Below the pieces are notes generated by a model that saw only the letters and a list, made by a program, of their open reading frames with translations, ran no database searches and was not told where the DNA came from. From positions 1-42,093 of IMG/VR virus record IMGVR_UViG_3300010413_000072: 42,093 nt of DNA. One strand, given 5' to 3'. Shown in pieces: positions 21,238 to 34,174 of the stretch (its first letter is position 1; the number at the start of each line of letters is the position of its first letter). Source of the stretch: a virus. The position numbers and the translations under genes are program-made.

Positions 21238-22602
21238 TTAGAGCAATCGGCGGTAGTCCACCGTCGAGGATATTAGGGGATTGTAAGCCATTATGAAGGC
21301 GTCCGCTAGGTTTGGCGACTTCACATCCCTTTTGTCAAGGTCTTTTTTGCTCTCGACCTTTACCTTGCCGTTCGCATCAAAATCCCGGCGCGGCGTGGAT
21401 AGCTCGTCGATCAACTGCTCCAGGTTCTCGCAGCCGCTGTTGATGCTGATTAGCTGGTCCTCGTCAATCTTCTCGCCGTTGCGGACCGCAGCATAGGTGG
21501 CTTTCAGCCGGTCAGCCACCGTCCACCAGGCTTGGGCCTTAAGGTTCGAAAAAAAGTCGCGGTTCGTCACACCCGGCTGGTATTGGGCGTCAGGACGGTG
21601 GACCGCATTGCCCGCGCCGAACCCATGATATGCGATCCGTGCGCGCGTCGTTTGGTTCAGCTCTTTGAACTTCGACCCGGCCGCAGCGCCCATCCCGATA
21701 TTGTCATAGTAGATGGTGGCTTGCATCTGACGGGCCAGGCTGTAGACCCTGGAGCAGCTGCCGAGGAGGTCGTCGGTCTTACCCTTCCATTGCTGCGCGT
21801 TCATGGTCAGCAGGCCGTATGCAGTGACCGTGGCGTTCATATCGCTGCCATCGTCCGCCACGTCATAGCCTATGCGCTTCAAGCCGCTGGGGCGGATGCC
21901 GAGGGCCTTGTGGGCGTCGATGGCCGCCATGAGCCAGGACCGTTTGATAATGGCGGACTCATCGTCGGTTCGCGGCTCACCCAGGTAGATATGGCGATAT
22001 TCGTCCTCATCCTCTCGCTTGGCCGTATCGATGATGCTGCGCATCGTCTCGGAGAGAAACTGGTTTTCGTCATAGTTGATTTTGCGAACGATGGTATTCG
22101 GTGGCGGACTTACCACGAACCGGCGCCAAACGAAATCGGAGACCAGCCGAGGGTTGAATATGATCCAGTGCTGGCTGCCTTCTTTGCGGATGGTCGGGTC
22201 GATGACCCTCCATTGCTCTTCGCTCAGCAGATGGGCCTCCTCGGCCCAATGGATATCTACGCCTTCGAGCGACTTGATCTCGTCGATGGACCGCCACAGA
22301 CCGTAAAATATGAACTCAGTGCCAGTGCGGTTATTGATTATCTTGTTTTTCAGGATAGTGAACTGGTCCCGCAGCCCGAACCGGTCGATCTGGATCTTGA
22401 GCAGAGAATAGACCGATTCCTCGATCTTGTTTTGGAATTGACGAGTGCAAAGGATGCGCAGGCTGCATCGTTGCGCCAGAAAGATGGCGAAGCCAGCGGC
22501 GTCCCAACTCTTCGACGATGACCGACCGCCATACAGGACGCGATTGCGGGCCGGGGTGGTCCAGAAGCTCCGCAGCGCGGGGTTAAGCGTTGGACCCGTC
22601 AT
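21238..22602 (-). CDS. Terminase large subunit (Terminase_3, PBSX type)
   Basis: 454 residues with both catalytic parts. ATPase: Walker A GGRSSSKS at residues 25-32 and Walker B VDIHWAEEAH at about 116-125. Nuclease (RNase H fold): IGYDVADDGSD near 245, YYDNIGMGA near 300 and SPNLADAFIMAY near 430 supply the acidic residues. This is the motor that cuts and pumps DNA through the portal. PBSX/SPP1-type terminases usually package by the headful method, which agrees with the circular map. Overlaps terS by 20 bp. Confidence 0.93.
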   Translation of the reverse strand: MTGPTLNPALRSFWTTPARNRVLYGGRSSSKSWDAAGFAIFLAQRCSLRILCTRQFQNKIEESVYSLLKIQIDRFGLRDQFTILKNKIINNRTGTEFIFYGLWRSIDEIKSLEGVDIHWAEEAHLLSEEQWRVIDPTIRKEGSQHWIIFNPRLVSDFVWRRFVVSPPPNTIVRKINYDENQFLSETMRSIIDTAKREDEDEYRHIYLGEPRTDDESAIIKRSWLMAAIDAHKALGIRPSGLKRIGYDVADDGSDMNATVTAYGLLTMNAQQWKGKTDDLLGSCSRVYSLARQMQATIYYDNIGMGAAAGSKFKELNQTTRARIAYHGFGAGNAVHRPDAQYQPGVTNRDFFSNLKAQAWWTVADRLKATYAAVRNGEKIDEDQLISINSGCENLEQLIDELSTPRRDFDANGKVKVESKKDLDKRDVKSPNLADAFIMAYNPLISSTVDYRRLL

Positions 22603-23323
22603 TTGGCTTGTTCAGTTCACGGTAGAAATCATCCAGGCCGAGAGGGGTCATGCTACCGTCGGGGCTGGTGTGGGCCAGATTGTCGGTGAACATAGCCAGA
22701 TGCCGCCCGAGCAGTTCCAGAGACTTATCGCGGGAATGGGTCAGTATCTCGATGCCGCCGCGTGTCTGCTTGGCCCCGGCATACAGCTGCTTGGCGGCCG
22801 GGGATAGCGTGCGGGTATCCTTCACGGCGATGGATTCAATGCCTCGGCCGAAGCATTCCGGGCACTCGGGGTAAGGCGGAAAACGCGCATCGTATCCGAT
22901 ACCACCCTCGAGGTCCGGCTCGGCTGGGAGCGGCTGGCCCATACGCTCGGCCATCTGGTAGGCTTGTTGGTGCTGGCGCTGCACTTGTTCCCACTCTGCC
23001 GGTGTGAACTGGTAGCGATGGTCCTTGCCGTAACAGTGCCGACAACAGTCCTGCCGCACTTCCACCAGTTCGTTCGGATCGGCGGTCACCGTGGCCCACA
23101 AGAGGCGCACCACATCGTCCGCCTTGATATCGAGCCGCTCGGCACGTTCGCGCAGCAGTTCGCCTATCCGCGTCTTGATGTCAGCTTTTGTCAGCAACCG
23201 GCTGGCAGACGTGCGCGCCGCTGCCCTGGAGCTTTCCGGGTGCACAGTCAGGTACGCCTCAGTGGCGTTGAGCTCTGGATCGGCCACCAGAGCCCGGCAG
23301 AATTGTTCGGCGTTATTGTCCAT
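22583..23323 (-). CDS. Terminase small subunit with zinc-ribbon insertion
   Basis: 246 residues. Residues 1-85 form the HTH DNA-binding part of the Terminase_2 kind (FCRALVADPELNATEAYLTV, SRLLTKADIKTRIGELLRE). A middle insertion has CCRHCYG near residue 93 and PECPECFGRG near 155, four cysteines that could hold zinc. The C-terminus is helical. It selects the packaging site and recruits the large subunit. No ribosome binding site precedes ATG 23323, and a promoter-like element ends so close that the messenger may be leaderless. Confidence 0.88.
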   Translation of the reverse strand: MDNNAEQFCRALVADPELNATEAYLTVHPESSRAAARTSASRLLTKADIKTRIGELLRERAERLDIKADDVVRLLWATVTADPNELVEVRQDCCRHCYGKDHRYQFTPAEWEQVQRQHQQAYQMAERMGQPLPAEPDLEGGIGYDARFPPYPECPECFGRGIESIAVKDTRTLSPAAKQLYAGAKQTRGGIEILTHSRDKSLELLGRHLAMFTDNLAHTSPDGSMTPLGLDDFYRELNKPNDGSNA

Positions 23324-23329
23324 GCCGAC

Positions 23330-23359
23330 AGTCTAGCCGCCTCGTCGCCCCTGGGTCAA
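23330..23359 (-). promoter_or_regulatory. Putative promoter of the packaging genes
   Basis: Minus-strand TTGACC (23359-23354), 18 bp, TAGACT (23335-23330). The -35 and -10 are the same hexamers as in operator module copy B, but the spacer is 18 and the left palindrome arm is missing. The predicted start lies at or beside the terS ATG at 23323. Confidence 0.5.
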
Positions 23360-23414
23360 CCTGTGACAATGTGTGCAAATGTATTGACCTATTGTCACAC
23401 AAAAAAACCCTTAT

Positions 23415-23447
23415 AAATCAATGACTGTGCAAATAGTGACAATTGTG
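23415..23447 (+). repeat. 33-bp inverted repeat, left arm
   Basis: Matches the reverse complement of 23539-23571 at 32 of 33 bases. It contains three of the forward iterons or parts of them. The 91 bp between arms are AT-rich. Confidence 0.9.
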
Positions 23448-23538
23448 ACAATGATTATATAGAGAGGCTAGAAGCAGTATCAGTAAATTATAGTAATTAT
23501 AAAAGGAGGTATTCAGGGGGTTATAGGGAAAACATCTG

Positions 23539-23571
23539 CACAATTGTCACAATTTGCACAGTCATTGATTT
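23539..23571 (-). repeat. 33-bp inverted repeat, right arm
   Basis: Partner of 23415-23447 with a single mismatch. Both arms start AAATCAATGACTGTGCAAAT when read outward-in. A cruciform or looped nucleoprotein complex is possible. Confidence 0.9.
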
Positions 23572-23691
23572 TAAAGGGAAAATTCCGTGACAATGCAGAT
23601 TTTTCATTGTCACACATTTGCACAAAACGGGGTTTATAATTTTACTGAGCAGTTTATAAAATTATGGAAAAATTACTATAAATTATAGACG

Positions 23692-23716
23692 AAAAAAAAG
23701 CCCGCTTTACGCGAGC
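23692..23716 (-). terminator. Rho-independent terminator after the MazG-like gene
   Basis: Minus strand GCTCGC, loop GTAAA, GCGGGC (one G-T pair), then eight T. It lies 32 bp beyond the MazG-like stop at 23748 and would end the leftward early/replication transcript before the iteron region. Confidence 0.75.
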
Positions 23717-23747
23717 AAAAGGGGGCGCTCAGTAAATTACTGAATAA

Positions 23748-24038: not shown

Positions 24039-25481
24039 TCACTCCTCTGTCACACGCTTAAACAACGCCCAAGCACATCGAGCCTCAATAATCGGCAAGT
24101 ATTCCGCCTCCCGCTCGCACAATACCGGGTTGAACCCCTCCAGCAGCGCCGCCTTACCGGTCGACCCACTACCGGCGAACGGGTCGAGTACCGTCCCACC
24201 TGGTGGCGTCACCAATCGGCAGCACCATCGCATCAGCTCGGTCGGCTTGACGGTTGGGTGGTGGTTCCTCGCACCGCCAGTCCGCCCAGCGCCGGCACGC
24301 GGCGACTTGAGGCCATCAGAGCCCTCAGCCCGACCGCCAGTCACCTCCCCCGCGGCCACATGCGCCAGATGATCGCAGCCCTCATTCCGGTCCGCCTTGC
24401 TGGCCTTGGCGCAGTAGAAATATCGCCCCCACGGCTCATCGTCGAAGCACCCGTCGTGCAGGATGTTGGCGGGCCAGCGGCCGTGATGTTCACTGCCTAC
24501 ATAGTCCGCCGATTGAGGAACAATCGGTGTTACTCCATTTTGTGACCCACGACCGTTCGTTTTTATCATTTCGTCTCCAATCCGACACCCATCCACATTG
24601 ATCGCCCCCACGCCATGCGTCAGCACGTTGTCAGCGACAGTGCCCTCGAGAGGTTTCCGGGCGATGATGATGGGCTCATAGGCTGGCTTTAGCGCCGTCC
24701 CCCAGCCTTCCCACTGTTTCGCCTCGTCGGTGTGGGCGGTGGTGATATCAACCTCGACAGCAACCCCGGCGCCTATCGTATGCCGCGGCCCTTCCGCCTT
24801 ATTGGCTATCCCGCTTTTTTTCTGCCCGATCACCTCCCTGTCCGCGTGCCGTAGTAGTTCATCATATCGGCCATCTAGCGGTAGGATCTCTTTCATCTTC
24901 TGCCAGTCGCGCCATAATGGGAGACTGGGTTGGCTCTTACCAACCCAATGACTAACCACGCCGCTGTCCTCTGGGTATTCTAGATGCCGTTTAATATCAG
25001 CATGAGTCACTCCCGCTTGCTTGATTGTATTCCGCAGATAAGCCCTTATGTCGTCGAATCTGGCCCCGCCACGGCTTTTATCCACCGCCTTGCTAACATC
25101 CAGACTTTTCGGAAATCCCGATCCATAGAACCAAAACGCCGTGTCGCGGATCTCAAACCCCGCCAGGCGCAGCGCCATGCTCATCAAGTCTTGTGTTCGA
25201 CTGCCCGCAAAGACGAGCGCATAACCGCCCGGCTTGAGCACGCGCAACACCTCACGCCATACCGACGGCCCCGGGACGAAGCTATCCCAACTCTTGCCCA
25301 TGAATCCACCACCCGTGTGGATATAGTCGTCCCCGGCCAGCCAGTGCCGCAGCACCTCGGCCATGTCCGGCTGTTTGCTGAGGCCGTAAGGCGGATCGGT
25401 CACAATGCTGTCGACCGAACTATCCGCCATCCCGCGCAATGTATCCAGGCAATCCCCGTGGTGTATCTTGTAATCGATCAA
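24039..25481 (-). CDS. Beta-class DNA methyltransferase (N6-adenine or N4-cytosine)
   Basis: I start at TTG 25481, which overlaps the upstream TGA as TTGA and follows GAGGATGAGG; the 63 extra codons of the longer frame lie inside the previous gene. In the 480-residue product, catalytic motif IV TDPPYG is at about residue 27 and the AdoMet-binding LDPFAGSGSTG at about 428. This order, with a long target-recognition region between, marks the beta class. It contains NHHPTVKPTELMRWC, usual in phage enzymes. It probably protects phage DNA from restriction; the recognised site is unknown. Confidence 0.87.
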   Translation of the reverse strand: MIDYKIHHGDCLDTLRGMADSSVDSIVTDPPYGLSKQPDMAEVLRHWLAGDDYIHTGGGFMGKSWDSFVPGPSVWREVLRVLKPGGYALVFAGSRTQDLMSMALRLAGFEIRDTAFWFYGSGFPKSLDVSKAVDKSRGGARFDDIRAYLRNTIKQAGVTHADIKRHLEYPEDSGVVSHWVGKSQPSLPLWRDWQKMKEILPLDGRYDELLRHADREVIGQKKSGIANKAEGPRHTIGAGVAVEVDITTAHTDEAKQWEGWGTALKPAYEPIIIARKPLEGTVADNVLTHGVGAINVDGCRIGDEMIKTNGRGSQNGVTPIVPQSADYVGSEHHGRWPANILHDGCFDDEPWGRYFYCAKASKADRNEGCDHLAHVAAGEVTGGRAEGSDGLKSPRAGAGRTGGARNHHPTVKPTELMRWCCRLVTPPGGTVLDPFAGSGSTGKAALLEGFNPVLCEREAEYLPIIEARCAWALFKRVTEE

Positions 25482-25717
25482 TTCCTCATCCTCTTGTGTA
25501 GTCCCATCGCCGTCACAACGCCTAATGCCGCCCCGGTTCCTATCCATGGCACCACCGCCAGCCCTCCGTGTACCATCCCCACCACGACCACCACATCGGC
25601 CAGCGATAGGGCGTAGGAGGTCACGATAGCCCACCCATAGTGCCCGTGGATCACGTTCTGCTGCTGCCAAGCCCGGAGAAACACGAGCGCGAAAGTCGCC
25701 GCGGATAGCCCGATCAC
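25478..25717 (-). CDS. Small multi-span membrane protein (unknown)
   Basis: 79 residues, GTG 25717 overlapping the upstream stop as GTGA. Three hydrophobic segments at about residues 2-16, 29-47 and 53-71; a basic end (GLHKRMRN). FLRAWQQQNV and IVTSYALSLADVVVVV are seen in small uncharacterised membrane proteins of many tailed phages. It could be mistaken for a holin by topology, but it lies in the early/replication operon far from the lysis genes. Confidence 0.6.
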   Translation of the reverse strand: MIGLSAATFALVFLRAWQQQNVIHGHYGWAIVTSYALSLADVVVVVGMVHGGLAVVPWIGTGAALGVVTAMGLHKRMRN

Positions 25718-25944
25718 TTCTTCAACCCCTCCAACGCCACCTGAACCAGCAGCCGCCTAGCCTCCCCCGGCAACGTCCGCTCGAGCACATAGGCCCGCAG
25801 ACTGACCCCGTGCAGCATGAAGCGCTCCAGGCGGTACATATCCCCCGAGAAGCGCCGCGTGAGCGTCGGCTCGCCAGTGGGGAACTCGACGGTCATGCCA
25901 TGCAGACAGCCGCCGAGGTGTGGAAAAGATGTCTGGTCAGTCAC
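25714..25944 (-). CDS. Small conserved phage protein (unknown)
   Basis: GTG 25944 overlaps the previous stop as GTGA and has GGGAGGAA just upstream, giving 76 residues starting VTDQTSFPHLGGCLHGMTVE. A beta strand, then MYRLERFMLHGVSLRAYVLE and a helical end. It resembles nothing I can name with confidence. Confidence 0.5.
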   Translation of the reverse strand: MTDQTSFPHLGGCLHGMTVEFPTGEPTLTRRFSGDMYRLERFMLHGVSLRAYVLERTLPGEARRLLVQVALEGLKK

Positions 25945-26920: not shown

Positions 26921-26951
26921 AGTCTAGTCGCTATTGTCCGGCTGGTCAATA
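26921..26951 (-). promoter_or_regulatory. Operator/promoter module, copy B
   Basis: Palindrome TATTGTCCGGCTGGTCAATA (26932-26951). Minus strand: TTGACC (26949-26944), 17 bp, TAGACT (26926-26921). It overlaps the last codons of the primase/helicase gene and should drive the run of small genes starting at 26885. Confidence 0.75.
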
Positions 26952-29101
26952 CTTCCGTCGGTCATTCGTGGATCGTCCGGGTCGCGGTAGAACACCACCC
27001 CCGGGCCGCGGGTGCCGAACCGCTGCTTCTTCTTGCCGACGGTCCAGCCGAGGATCCGCAGCACATTGGCGATCCGCCGGCCGTGTGCGGTGGTCAGCCG
27101 GTCGTCGGTTATCTTGAGCAGCACCGAGGCGATGAGGTTGGTGGTCACCGCCGTGATGTGGCTCGCTTCCAGCCACTCGGCGATCTTGTCCTGCCAGGGG
27201 TCACGCTCCCGACGTTCCTCCTGCTCAGGATGAATGAGCCGCTTCTCGACTTCGTGCTTGACATGCCACTTCTCACCGGCCAGGTATCGCGCCTTGGCCT
27301 CCGCCCATAGCTGGTCGCGGTCCGCCACGATGCCGGCGATATCGCACAGGCCGCACATGACCGGCCAGAATCGCCGGTTCCCAGTCTGGTCCTTGAGGTA
27401 GCCCACACCCTCCTCCGGATTGACGGTACCCATAAAGACACACTGGCGGGGCACATCGACGATGGTGCGACCGTAGGGGGGCCGATACCGGTCGACACGA
27501 CGTGAGGCGAACTTCTTAACGGCACCGGTCTCGGCCCGGTTCATCGCGTCCATCTCGGCCACCTCCACGATCCAGGCACCATGCAATTGAATGGCCGCAT
27601 CCTTGTTGGTCACGTCGGGCAGCTCATCGGTGAACCATTCGGGATCAGGCATCAGGGAGAATATGGCGGTGGACTTCTGCAGACCCTGCGAGCCCTCGAG
27701 CACGACCATGTAATCGGCCTTGCATCCCGGCTCGTAGACCCGGGCGATCGCGGAGATGAGAAATTTTGCACCGACGATCTGCGAATATTCCGACGCCTCG
27801 ACGCCGAGATACCGAGATAGCCAGTTGTCCAACCGGCCCACGCCGTCCCACTCCAGCCGGTTCAGGTAGTTGCGCACCGGGTGGTTGCGGTTACGGTGCG
27901 CGAGCATCAGCACCGCATCGGCCACCGCCTCCTTGCCGGGCTTCATCAGCTGCCCTTGCATCCACGCTTGCGCCTCCACCGTGTCGGCATCCGTCCAGTT
28001 GCGCGGTGTCTCGTCCTGCTCACGCCACGGCGGCTTGGCCAGCAGAATAACCCGCTGCTTGAACTCATCGAACGCTACGGCGATATGACGCTCGACCATC
28101 ACGGCGGCCTCGAGTGTCGTATTGCCCTTGCCGCCGGCTGGCAGCTCCAGGCCGGGGGCACCGGGCGGTAATGGGACGGCGGGTACCTCGGGTGCGGGCA
28201 TAGCGGCCCGGATGGTATGCGCGCCCCCGGCCAGGTGGACCAGCGTACCCATGCCCAGCTCGGTCGGCGGGCTGCCGCGGTAATGCCGCCACCGGGCATC
28301 GACGCTATCGCCATCACCCCCGCACCGGTCCGACCACTCGCGCCACAGCTCCAGGCCCTCGTCAGTCCCGCCGGTGGCGTTATAGACGGCCATGCCTATC
28401 CGGTTCCACATCTCCCAGTCCGGCCCCTCGTTGGGAATCAGTTCGAGCGCGATGCGCACCCGTTCGATATCATCGGCGCGTTTGGGTATCAGGGCGAGGG
28501 GGTCGGTGCTACCGGTGCGGGGCTGGGCCTGGGCGGGCCCTGTGATCTCCAGCTGGTCGACGCCGGGCATGGTATCAATCGGCACCCCGGCGATGCGGTG
28601 GACCTCGTACTGCACACCGGCGACGCGCCCCACATAGAACGCCTGGCTGGCGGAGAAAGACTCGTTCGCCAGGATGCCACCCAGTATCGTGTTGATCTTG
28701 CCGGTGAAAGCGTGCCGCGCCTCGAGGCCCTGCGCCTGGCTGAACGGCGCAATGACGCGCCAGCGGTTGCCCTTAACGCCATGGCTCGGGGTCGTCACGA
28801 TGATCGCCTCGATGCCCATCAGCCCCAGGATGCCCGCCGCATCGCTGGGGGACATGTCGCCCTTATCGTAGTCCCCGATCACGCCCCATGCCTCGATGAT
28901 GTTGGCATCGTGGCGGAGGGAGCCCTTGGGGGTCTTCTGCTCGCCGTAGCGGTTCAGGGAGATCAACGGGCATGCGGCCTTGTCCGGGTACTCCGGCAGC
29001 TGCTGCAACCAATCGACCATCCCATCGGTAGTCGTGGTGTACTCGGTCGCCTGCAGCCCGCCGAGATTGGGAAATAGTGTGAATGTGAGGGGGCTATGCA
29101 T
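26924..29101 (-). CDS. Primase / VapE-type SF3 helicase
   Basis: 725 residues. N-terminal 1-230: archaeo-eukaryotic-primase-like region with GDYDKGD (acidic pair near 77-79) and TPSHGVKGNRWRVIAPF near 104. A PriCT-like linker follows (WEMWNRIGMAVYNATGG). From about residue 380 on there is a virulence-associated-E/SF3 helicase with Walker A LEGSQGLQKST near 465, EVAEMD as Walker B region and F-M-G-T-V-N-P as sensor. This would start replication and unwind the fork for the family B polymerase. The GGAGG before ATG 29101 directly abuts the start, so coupling to a short upstream frame is likely. Confidence 0.85.
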   Translation of the reverse strand: MHSPLTFTLFPNLGGLQATEYTTTTDGMVDWLQQLPEYPDKAACPLISLNRYGEQKTPKGSLRHDANIIEAWGVIGDYDKGDMSPSDAAGILGLMGIEAIIVTTPSHGVKGNRWRVIAPFSQAQGLEARHAFTGKINTILGGILANESFSASQAFYVGRVAGVQYEVHRIAGVPIDTMPGVDQLEITGPAQAQPRTGSTDPLALIPKRADDIERVRIALELIPNEGPDWEMWNRIGMAVYNATGGTDEGLELWREWSDRCGGDGDSVDARWRHYRGSPPTELGMGTLVHLAGGAHTIRAAMPAPEVPAVPLPPGAPGLELPAGGKGNTTLEAAVMVERHIAVAFDEFKQRVILLAKPPWREQDETPRNWTDADTVEAQAWMQGQLMKPGKEAVADAVLMLAHRNRNHPVRNYLNRLEWDGVGRLDNWLSRYLGVEASEYSQIVGAKFLISAIARVYEPGCKADYMVVLEGSQGLQKSTAIFSLMPDPEWFTDELPDVTNKDAAIQLHGAWIVEVAEMDAMNRAETGAVKKFASRRVDRYRPPYGRTIVDVPRQCVFMGTVNPEEGVGYLKDQTGNRRFWPVMCGLCDIAGIVADRDQLWAEAKARYLAGEKWHVKHEVEKRLIHPEQEERRERDPWQDKIAEWLEASHITAVTTNLIASVLLKITDDRLTTAHGRRIANVLRILGWTVGKKKQRFGTRGPGVVFYRDPDDPRMTDGSIDQPDNSD

Positions 29102-29153: not shown

Positions 29154-29468
29154 TTATCGCATCATCTGCCCGGTGGCTCGGCGTTTCAGCTCCTCGGGGG
29201 CTTTGACCGCGTGCGGGTCGCGGGCGGCGAGGCCCTGGCCCACCACGACGGCTATCTCGTTGCTAATAGCATGCCGGAGCACGGCCCGTCTCATTTGCGT
29301 CATGGTGTTGAAATGGGCCATGACCAGCGAGGGCGACACGCCCGCCCGCTCGGCCACCCCGCGCTTGGTCAGGTTGCGGTAATCATCCTCGGCGGCCAGG
29401 GCCACCGCCGCATCGAGGATCTGCAGCCGTCGCTCGGCTTTCGGCATCCAGTCTTTTGTCTTGCTCAT
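29154..29468 (-). CDS. Short TetR-like transcriptional regulator
   Basis: 104 residues. The N-terminal 60 residues fit the TetR DNA-binding domain: AERRLQILDAAVALAAED, then LTKRGVAERAGVSPSLVMAH with AGVSPSLVMAHF as the turn and recognition helix and M-RRAVLRHAI as helix 4. The usual ~130-residue ligand/dimer domain is missing, so it should dimerise through its short C-terminus or act as a monomer. Operator copy C lies right upstream, so it is the leading candidate for the protein that binds the five palindromes, including its own promoter. That link is inference. Confidence 0.75.
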   Translation of the reverse strand: MSKTKDWMPKAERRLQILDAAVALAAEDDYRNLTKRGVAERAGVSPSLVMAHFNTMTQMRRAVLRHAISNEIAVVVGQGLAARDPHAVKAPEELKRRATGQMMR

Positions 29469-29499: not shown

Positions 29500-29530
29500 A
29501 GGTTAGCGGGTTATGGCCGGGCGGTCAATA
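29500..29530 (-). promoter_or_regulatory. Operator/promoter module, copy C
   Basis: Palindrome-related TTATGGCCGGGCGGTCAATA (29511-29530), the most diverged left arm. Minus strand: TTGACC (29528-29523), 17 bp, TAACCT (29505-29500). It overlaps the end of the C5-methyltransferase gene and precedes the TetR-like gene (ATG 29468). Confidence 0.65.
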
Positions 29531-30557
29531 TGAACGCTTCGATGAACGCCGTGGCGACTTCGGCATTGATTGCATTGCCGTAACCGCGCAGTCGTCCCAC
29601 TCGGGCGGCAGTCCCATCAACCAGCGGGAATGTGCCGGGTTCAACTGGCCGCCACTTTCCATCCCGGCAGTAGAGCCAGTCCGCATCTCGCCAGAGGCCG
29701 TTAGTCGGGCCGGGCTGCCTGCGGTCAGTTGCGCCGTTGGTCCCAACGGCATCCCCATACCCTTGTCCGGCCACTTCTCTTTCGCCCGTGCTTGCCGCTG
29801 TAGAAATACCTCCAGATTGTTCTCGTCCCCCTGCGCCTTCGGGGTCGGCCATCCCGCCAAACTCACCGCCCCCGGTAGTCGGTCCGTCCCCTGTCCCGGC
29901 CCGCCCTTCGGCCCGTCCTGCTGGCACGGGGTCGGCCATCCGGCCAGTGTCGCATCCCTCACCAGGCATGCACATCCGTGTTTCGTTCCGTGAAGCTCCT
30001 TCTGTCCCTTCGACCGCCCTGATGTATCGTGGGCTTGCGGAGTCGTCCATCCTTTCAGCAACAAAGAAGAGTCGCTGTCGGATGTGCGGCGCACCGACGC
30101 CCGCAGCGCAGAGATCGAGCGCCCCGCTGGCGTAGCCCGCGCCTTCCAGGTCAGTTTGTACAAGGTCGAGCCAACCGAGGCCGTCTTTGCTTGCAACCTG
30201 CTCGCCAAAGACTGGGACCGCTTCCGGTTTTCCGTGTTGGATGAGGTGGAGCCAGTGTGGCCAGAGGTGCCGCTCGTCAGTAAACCCGCCAGCTTTGCCT
30301 GCCGCGCTGAAAGGTTGGCAAGGACAGCTTCCCGTCCATACAGGCCGATCATCAGGCCAACCTGCTCGGCGTAATGCGTAGGACCACACTCCGATTCCGG
30401 CGAAAAAATGGCACTGAGTGTATCCCTCAAGATCTGCTGGCACGATGTCTTCGATTGATCGTTCATCAACTACCCCCGGAGCTATCTGCCCCATTCTGAT
30501 TAATTCCCGCAGCCACGCGGCCGCGAACGGATCGTGCTCGTTGTAGTATGCGGTCAC
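29511..30557 (-). CDS. C5-cytosine DNA methyltransferase
   Basis: 348 residues, GTG 30557 overlapping the previous stop as GTGA. Motif I FFAGIG at 51-56 binds AdoMet; motif [11 protein letters not shown] has the catalytic cysteine at residue 80; motif VI is seen as FGEQV with Glu119; motif VIII as HIRQRLFFV near 160; motif X as [14 protein letters not shown] near the end. The stretch between about 190 and 280 is low in complexity (Gly/Ala/Asp) and should be the target-recognition region. It makes 5-methylcytosine, probably against host restriction. A second long open frame overlaps nearly all of it. Confidence 0.87.
29525..30469 (-). other. Long same-strand overlapping frame in the methyltransferase gene
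   Basis: A 314-codon frame, +1 relative to the methyltransferase, opening [18 protein letters not shown]. It has repeated AGWPTP motifs (three copies), RRTSDSDSS and an ending [20 protein letters not shown]. This ending is known to me from many database proteins annotated as methyltransferase-like or hypothetical in phages. Both frames therefore look family-like. It may be an overprinted gene or a shadow that persists because the true gene is conserved; the methyltransferase frame holds all the catalytic motifs. I do not count it as an established gene. Confidence 0.35.
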
Positions 30558-33433: not shown

Positions 33434-33665
33434 CACGCAACGCCTCGACAAATATGCGGCTCACCTCTTCGGCGTTAGACCCCCAGGTTACCGGTAGTTC
33501 ATCGCTGATCCCTATTTGCCGTCCGTGTCTCCACACCGCCCGCACCTCCTTCTCGGGGTACGCCGGCACCTTGAGCGCATTGAGCAAACGCCGATTCTCT
33601 GCGGCCAGTAGTTCGATTTCCTGCCGCAGCGCCTCGCATTCTGTCGTGATTGGTGATTCCATCAT
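33426..33665 (-). CDS. Small coiled-coil protein (unknown)
   Basis: 79 residues from ATG 33665 (ATGA overlap with the upstream stop). Residues 9-33 form a heptad helix (CEALRQEIELLAAENRRLLN); then a short domain VRAVWRHGRQIGISDELPV and a helix [14 protein letters not shown]. Lies directly before the polymerase gene, with which it overlaps by 8 bp. No family recognised. Confidence 0.55.
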   Translation of the reverse strand: MMESPITTECEALRQEIELLAAENRRLLNALKVPAYPEKEVRAVWRHGRQIGISDELPVTWGSNAEEVSRIFVEALRDA

Positions 33666-34174
33666 TCACCGCCTTTAGGCCACCCGGCCTCAACAAGATT
33701 GGTGATAACTCCGGTTGCAACGGGTAATTGTCTGGTTTTCTCCGGCTCGGCAGGAAGGTATTTTTCCAGTTCCGGGGCTGCTTTGACCAGTTGAGCGCGA
33801 GTTGTCACACTATTTACCAATCCTTTTAATTGCAATTTCAGATGCTTGATCTTCTCGGCCTGCTCGGCGTATTTTTCTGCGAGTACGTTGAGCTTTTTGA
33901 TCAGCTCCTCCGGGTATTTGTCGCGATTGATTTCAGGACCGTATGCGTGCGCAAAATAGCGGGCGTTGTTGCTATCGAATACCCGATGAATGTGTGACAA
34001 TAAGTATTCGTTGCGAAGCGCCTTGTCGTCGTACACGGCTTTTATTTTCGTAGGCATCTTGGTGATGAGGAATTTTTGCACAAGTTCTAACCCTTGTGCC
34101 TTGTAGTTCTCGGTCGGTACGTCGTCGATAACCGCACGAACAAACGCCTCTTTCATGTACTTAGTCAGTCTCAT
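33662..34174 (-). CDS. Nmad5-type putative nucleotide modification protein
   Basis: 170 residues with AAGGAG before ATG 34174. The opening MRLTKYMKEAFVRAVIDDVP, then KAVYDDKALRNEYL and a helical C-terminal part is the Nmad5 pattern, a family predicted from gene neighbourhoods to act in DNA base modification. The reaction has not been established for the family to my knowledge. Its presence with two DNA methyltransferases points to protected or modified phage DNA. Confidence 0.75.
   Translation of the reverse strand: MRLTKYMKEAFVRAVIDDVPTENYKAQGLELVQKFLITKMPTKIKAVYDDKALRNEYLLSHIHRVFDSNNARYFAHAYGPEINRDKYPEELIKKLNVLAEKYAEQAEKIKHLKLQLKGLVNSVTTRAQLVKAAPELEKYLPAEPEKTRQLPVATGVITNLVEAGWPKGGE

Follow-up and report, generated by a model that had tools for sequence, protein, structure and literature searches.

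The window, the whole stretch of DNA analysed here, is a phage record 42,093 bp long, and a terminal overlap of 144 bp suggests that its genome is complete and circular. Between its replication and packaging genes, as the first-pass annotation had placed it, is a gap of 424 bp (23324–23747) that separates a MazG-like gene, the last of the leftward early/replication operon, from the terminase small subunit gene terS (22583–23323, − strand), with which the leftward late operon begins; the phage has a Terminase_3-type terminase. The gap holds an array of 9-bp repeats (iterons), flanked on one side by the early operon's end and on the other by the terS promoter. As read from the letters, this promoter-like site (23330–23359, − strand) consists of TTGACC (23354–23359), an 18-bp spacer and TAGACT (23330–23335), with the nearest iteron 2 bp past its −35; it is conserved in the metagenomic relative G001 and similar in another, G006. 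A hairpin resembling an intrinsic terminator (23692–23716, − strand; GCTCGC-GTAAA-GCGGGC and a T run) lies where the early operon ends and has a counterpart in G001.

The − strand further encodes a primase-helicase with PriCT_2 and VapE-type parts (26924–29101), the proposed initiator, and, directly upstream of it here and in several relatives, a 104-aa TetR_N-like helix-turn-helix (HTH) protein (29154–29468) that may be an accessory factor. In many dwarf myoviruses, proteins with a TetR_N HTH only, annotated as transcription regulators, are encoded beside the primase-helicase gene or close to it. Two DNA methylases (24039–25670 and 29511–30557) and an Nmad5 (nucleotide-modification-associated) domain protein (33662–34174) could together form a DNA modification system.

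A mirrored array of twelve sites

The array spans 263 bp (23362–23624) and comprises 12 sites of the form TGTGACAAT or TGTGCAAAT, nine exact and three with one mismatch; the repeats reported by the first-pass annotation are thus real, with one site more than the eleven it had counted. On the + strand their order is ++-+++/---+--, mirrored about a dyad axis at 23493. In the terS-side arm, an outer pair (23362–23380, +; TGTGACAAT at 23362 and TGTGCAAAT at 23372, 10 bp apart) is followed by a single inverted site (23391–23399, −; TGTGACAAT) and by an inner triple in 9-bp steps (23426–23452, +; TGTGCAAAT at 23426, the one-mismatch AGTGACAAT at 23435 and TGTGACAAT at 23444). The early-operon-side arm has an inner triple, again in 9-bp steps (23534–23560, −; starts at 23534, 23543 and 23552; TGTGCAGAT, with one mismatch at 23534, then TGTGACAAT and TGTGCAAAT), a single inverted site (23586–23594, +; CGTGACAAT, one mismatch) and an outer pair (23606–23624, −; exact sites at 23606 and 23616, 10 bp apart). 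Between the inner triples lies a core of 81 bp (23453–23533) that is 67% AT, against 42% for the genome, and is a candidate unwinding element.

Site spacings run 10-19-35-9-9, then 90, then 9-9-34-20-10, and five of the six site pairs share the common axis exactly, the sixth being 1 bp off. The near-perfect inverted repeat described earlier was borne out, with 33-bp arms (23415–23447 and 23539–23571) matching at 32 of 33 positions around a 91-bp centre; the pair can be extended to 49 nt at 86%. The proposed phasing with the helix is seen in the 10-bp outer pairs and in the 20-bp step but not in the inner triples (9 bp), and the two repeat types do not alternate strictly as had been suggested, G001 carrying the other type at one of the window's sites.

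Chance does not produce such a layout in shuffled sequence. Matches with at most one mismatch number 14 in the gap, overlaps included (mean 0.51, maximum 4 in 500 dinucleotide shuffles), and dyad 5-mer pairs number 18 (mean 3.2, maximum 7 in 1,000 shuffles). Elsewhere in the 42-kb genome the 9-mers occur once exactly and 13 times with one mismatch, and the array is the genome's strongest dyad, with 37 matched bases against 16 for the runner-up. A cumulative GC-skew minimum had been put forward as a check on origin function; the array instead sits at the maximum, with the minimum near 37 kb. Because the skew here largely tracks the direction of genes and has a peak, not a dip, at the array, it is uninformative for the origin. 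The skew does shift abruptly at about 23.5 kb, at the array, though the flanking genes share direction.

Conservation in near relatives

An exact-pattern search for tandem 9-mers in viral contigs returned two metagenomic relatives, G001 and G002, with the same array in the same place, and two chance matches within coding sequence (L010 and L012). Identity between the window and G001 is 96% (104/108) in the iterons, 93% in the spacers and 93% in the core, or about 94% for the array overall, compared with 84% for terS and 74% of alignable bases, with many gaps, for the early-operon flank. Spacings in G001 are 10-20-35-9-9 and 10-20-34-9-9. G001 retains the helicase and the array, and a relative of the window's DNA polymerase gene was not detectable in it.

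The same layout in other letters

Arrays with other letters occupy the same place in relatives found through TerS/TerL. G003, G004 and L115 have GGG(G)T sites; G006 has GTGCCGT-type sites in the order ++-+++---++--, with arms of 11-17-33-8-9 and 9-20-34-9-9, so that the 10-20-35-9-9 arm spacing recurs within 3 bp. Sites resembling that of IHF (WATCAANNNNTTR-like) lie beside the inner triples in G003, G006 and L115 and are imperfect in the window; IHF-consensus-like sites (AATCAANNNNTTR) by the inner iteron triple were also seen at L015:1535–1560, L115:470–490 and L004 at about 4880. Named phages found via the helicase's TetR-like neighbour likewise have iteron arrays, upstream of terS or beside the primase, in differing letters.

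The nearest VapE relatives in a phage collection were picked by helicase alone, not by arrays. Among these, Marinobacter phage PS3 has an array directly 3′ of its VapE gene, with alternating GGTCACCCC/GGTCATACC sites in the order ++-+++/---+-- and arms of 9-20-36-9-9 and 10-20-36-9-9 (three additional two-mismatch matches were left out as chance). These arm spacings are within 1–2 bp of 10-20-35-9-9 and the VapE C-terminus is homologous to the window's (33% over 69 aa), whereas the iteron letters are unrelated and the primase part is Toprim rather than PriCT_2. Phages U5 and Haddon show +++-++/---++- in 8–9-bp steps, and in APSE-1 and Paenibacillus phage Bob, two-strand arrays of less regular layout follow VapE directly on its 3′ side. 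An unsupervised scan placed its top two-strand repeat cluster on the 3′ side of VapE in APSE-1, Bob, PS3, U5 and Haddon, within the sequence scanned; it missed the degenerate arrays of JD001, CKB-S1, MSW-3 and 367.14.

Vibrio phages 97.13 (L141:39640–39760) and 367.14 (L142:43580–43720) differ at one same base in all array iterons, GTAGT versus GTTGT, in surrounding DNA that is nearly identical, a pattern we take to be concerted evolution of the iteron array. In phage CP-T1 (L146:17330–17815), the gap upstream of terS contains inverted repeats that are nested (about 15 and 30 bp), as well as TGTCAC sites, and the helicase has a fourth C-terminal class. G005 encodes, between array and terS, a free-standing 113-aa copy resembling the C-terminal DNA-binding domain of its own D5-type helicase (L106:5404–5745, − strand; G005 25404–25745; 34% over 80 aa, E = 5e-11), which could be an inhibitor that occupies the origin.

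Iteron letters go with the type of helicase C-terminus

Across about 20 phages, the iteron letters track the C-terminal class of the helicase and not the TetR-like protein or TerS. Classes were taken from Pfam assignments for representatives, and for all phages but G005 the iteron letters had been recorded before the classes were compared. Helicases with a DUF5906-type C-terminus accompany GGG(G)T sites (G003, G004, JD001, Geezett, MSW-3, Scuro, SppYZU01); VapE-type C-termini accompany GTGC-type sites (CKB-S1, 1.009.O, PY6, SFCi1, VP16C) or, in the window and G001, TGTGCAAAT/TGTGACAAT sites, with a C-terminus 27–28% identical to that of PY6; and D5-type C-termini accompany TTGTAGT/TTGTTGT/TTGTAAC sites (PD0307, V97, V367, AeroV, R9Y1). 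The match of iterons to helicase class is a direct observation, as are the layout, its conservation and its recurrence in other letters, both among phages and in a known PICI origin; the covariation is confounded by phylogeny and amounts to about 14 independent lineages, not 20.

Single phages separate the candidate readers. G004, a metagenomic relative, shares the window's primase N-terminus (64% over residues 5–309), yet has a DUF5906 C-terminus and GGGT iterons. The TetR recognition helices of PY6 and SFCi1 are D5-class-like, their helicases are VapE-class and their iterons GTGC-type. Between phages 97.13 and 367.14 the TetR recognition helices are identical and the iterons differ, and several of the helicase differences fall in the last 90 residues, with the caveat that an HTH-like ORF (42950–43420) is present in 367.14 and absent from 97.13. 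The iterons of G005 are ambiguous, having first been called CCGTCC and fitted to the D5 class only upon re-inspection, and the CP-T1 sites have no clear fit to the three classes. The link of class to letter is coarse, since letters vary within the VapE class despite similar recognition helices (window, PS3, U5).

The VapE domain of the window's helicase is recognized at E = 8e-79 and matches 7pds (PriRep1 with dsDNA, six chains) at E = 9e-45. Its last ~100 residues (26924 to about 27253, − strand) are predicted to form a winged helix, the proposed iteron reader, which AlphaFold models with moderate confidence (mean pLDDT 67.8; 42 for the whole helicase half, for lack of sequences). A Foldseek search with the C-terminal domain model gave many weak winged-helix matches, 7pds included, none of them significant.

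Alternative readings of the array

The first-pass annotation had named TerS or HTH proteins as binders; the C-terminal domain of the VapE-type primase-helicase is better supported. We ourselves first favoured the TetR_N-like protein, whose recognition helix seemed to track GGGGT: the array would still be an origin, with this protein reading the iterons like lambda O and then recruiting the helicase. Its gene, 99% identical in G001, is the most similar among the proteins compared, recurs in G003, G004 and G005 and beside or near the primase in many relatives, and an array was found in every examined phage located through it. We dropped this candidate after PY6 and SFCi1, whose iterons are those that the helicases predict, the Vibrio pair, in which every iteron changed under identical TetR helices, and PS3. 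PS3 and U5 have the same kind of array with no convincing TetR-like match (best E = 0.022 over 42 aa in U5; none below E = 0.3 in PS3), and we now consider a TetR-like reader unlikely.

The earlier alternatives of an origin, a late-gene switch and a packaging site fared differently: an origin is supported, a late-promoter role can coexist with it, and packaging is argued against. That the iterons are operators through which a regulator controls the terS promoter would suit the conserved promoter-like site abutting the outermost iteron, but an operator would need neither mirror symmetry about an 81-bp AT-rich core nor six sites per arm, and the arrays of PS3, APSE-1, Bob and U5 lie behind the helicase and away from terS; we rate it as very unlikely, an estimate that leaves aside a possible secondary role in coupling. 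A pac (packaging initiation) site bound by TerS is less probable still and seems to us barely tenable. The position directly upstream of terS is a frequent one for pac, and the terminase type would fit. Against this, over its first 180 bases, terS has only 72% identity between the window and G001, with the HTH region changed while the array stayed at about 94%, for which TerS was dropped as the reader; where relatives have a long (about 660-aa) large terminase, about 1 kb and another gene separate array and terS; and the array accompanies the helicase across terminase types.

Comparison with known origins

The closest likeness is to the origins of phage-inducible islands (PICIs) and SaPIs, which have two iteron sets round an AT-rich stretch and a pri-rep type helicase (EcCICFT073, SaPIs; PMC6092414, PMC7581432). 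In PICI origins, two iteron sets flank an AT-rich region (PMC6092414, EcCICFT073 figure legend), and pri-rep-ori of EcCICFT073 was tested for plasmid maintenance, which gives this origin experimental support (PMC6092414). As we read it, the EcCICFT073 origin lies directly 3′ of pri-rep with the order ++-+++/--+-- and mirrored spacings (9-48-20-11-9, then 33, then 11-20-48-9). Orientation string and mirrored spacings are thus alike, whereas letters and exact spacings differ, and its helicase is D5-type rather than VapE-type. The window has a related initiator helicase with a predicted C-terminal DNA-binding domain, but its array is at the terS promoter, 3.3 kb from the helicase gene and not immediately 3′ of it; and the 42-kb genome, which encodes capsid, tail and terminase, is that of a complete tailed phage and not of a helper-dependent satellite. 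On the sequence, we class the array as a two-array origin of PICI type, carried by a phage that is not itself a PICI.

In SCCmec, the isolated C-terminal domain of the initiator helicase Cch2 binds short direct repeats (PMC7581432), a domain function that is predicted in the window; that origin differs in having three 5-nt direct repeats in a 23-bp region and no mirrored 12-site array. No description of such arrays in phages was found in the literature searched. The word 'repeat' was not found in the PS3 genome paper, and 'origin' is used there in senses unrelated to replication (PMC8424206); passages found in the phiPLPE-group paper name tetR genes and do not show a replication origin (PMC3391216).

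The window's arrangement also invites comparison with replicons that have iterons on one side only. Short iteron arrays beside AT-rich DNA are found in lambda ori and in iteron plasmids such as F ori2. Their arrays are one-sided direct repeats, in contrast to the window's mirrored arms, and a Rep_3 (PF01051) initiator, which a Rep_3 iteron plasmid would have, was not found in the window.

Discussion

We conclude that the array is very probably the phage's replication origin, of the two-array SaPI/PICI type, in which the VapE-type primase-helicase would read the sites through its C-terminal winged-helix domain. Counting against this are the skew, which does not mark the site, and the array's position: it lies on the 3′ side of the helicase gene, same strand, at a distance of 3.3 kb that includes several ORFs. 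Binding, hexamer number, melting and the start of replication at the array we infer as follows. Each arm would present six 9-bp sites to the C-terminal winged-helix domains, its orientation mirroring that of the opposite arm, so that two helicase assemblies would face each other, one per arm. The AT-rich core between the inner triples would open and one helicase would be loaded per strand; the attached primase domain would lay down primers for the phage DNA polymerase to extend, and forks would leave both ways in bidirectional theta replication. Six sites per arm suggests one hexamer per arm, as a numerical match. Because the terS promoter touches the outer iteron, occupancy of the origin could also influence late transcription.

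A broader geometric code for phage helicase-initiators is conceivable, and we offer it tentatively, as something short of likely. Six sites per half-origin would correspond to the six C-terminal domains of one hexamer and the mirrored halves to a head-to-head double hexamer; the protein ring would hold the geometry to 1–2 bp while the letters are rewritten in concert, as between phages 97.13 and 367.14, and a site at the terS promoter would let occupancy time late transcription.

A PICI-like organization is thereby extended to complete phages, with the geometry fixed and the letters exchangeable. It yields a rule by which origins could be predicted in VapE- and D5-type phages, points to a candidate reader domain and opens a route to testing whether such helicases are loaded as mirrored pairs, and it may bear on how islands and such phages came to share replicons.
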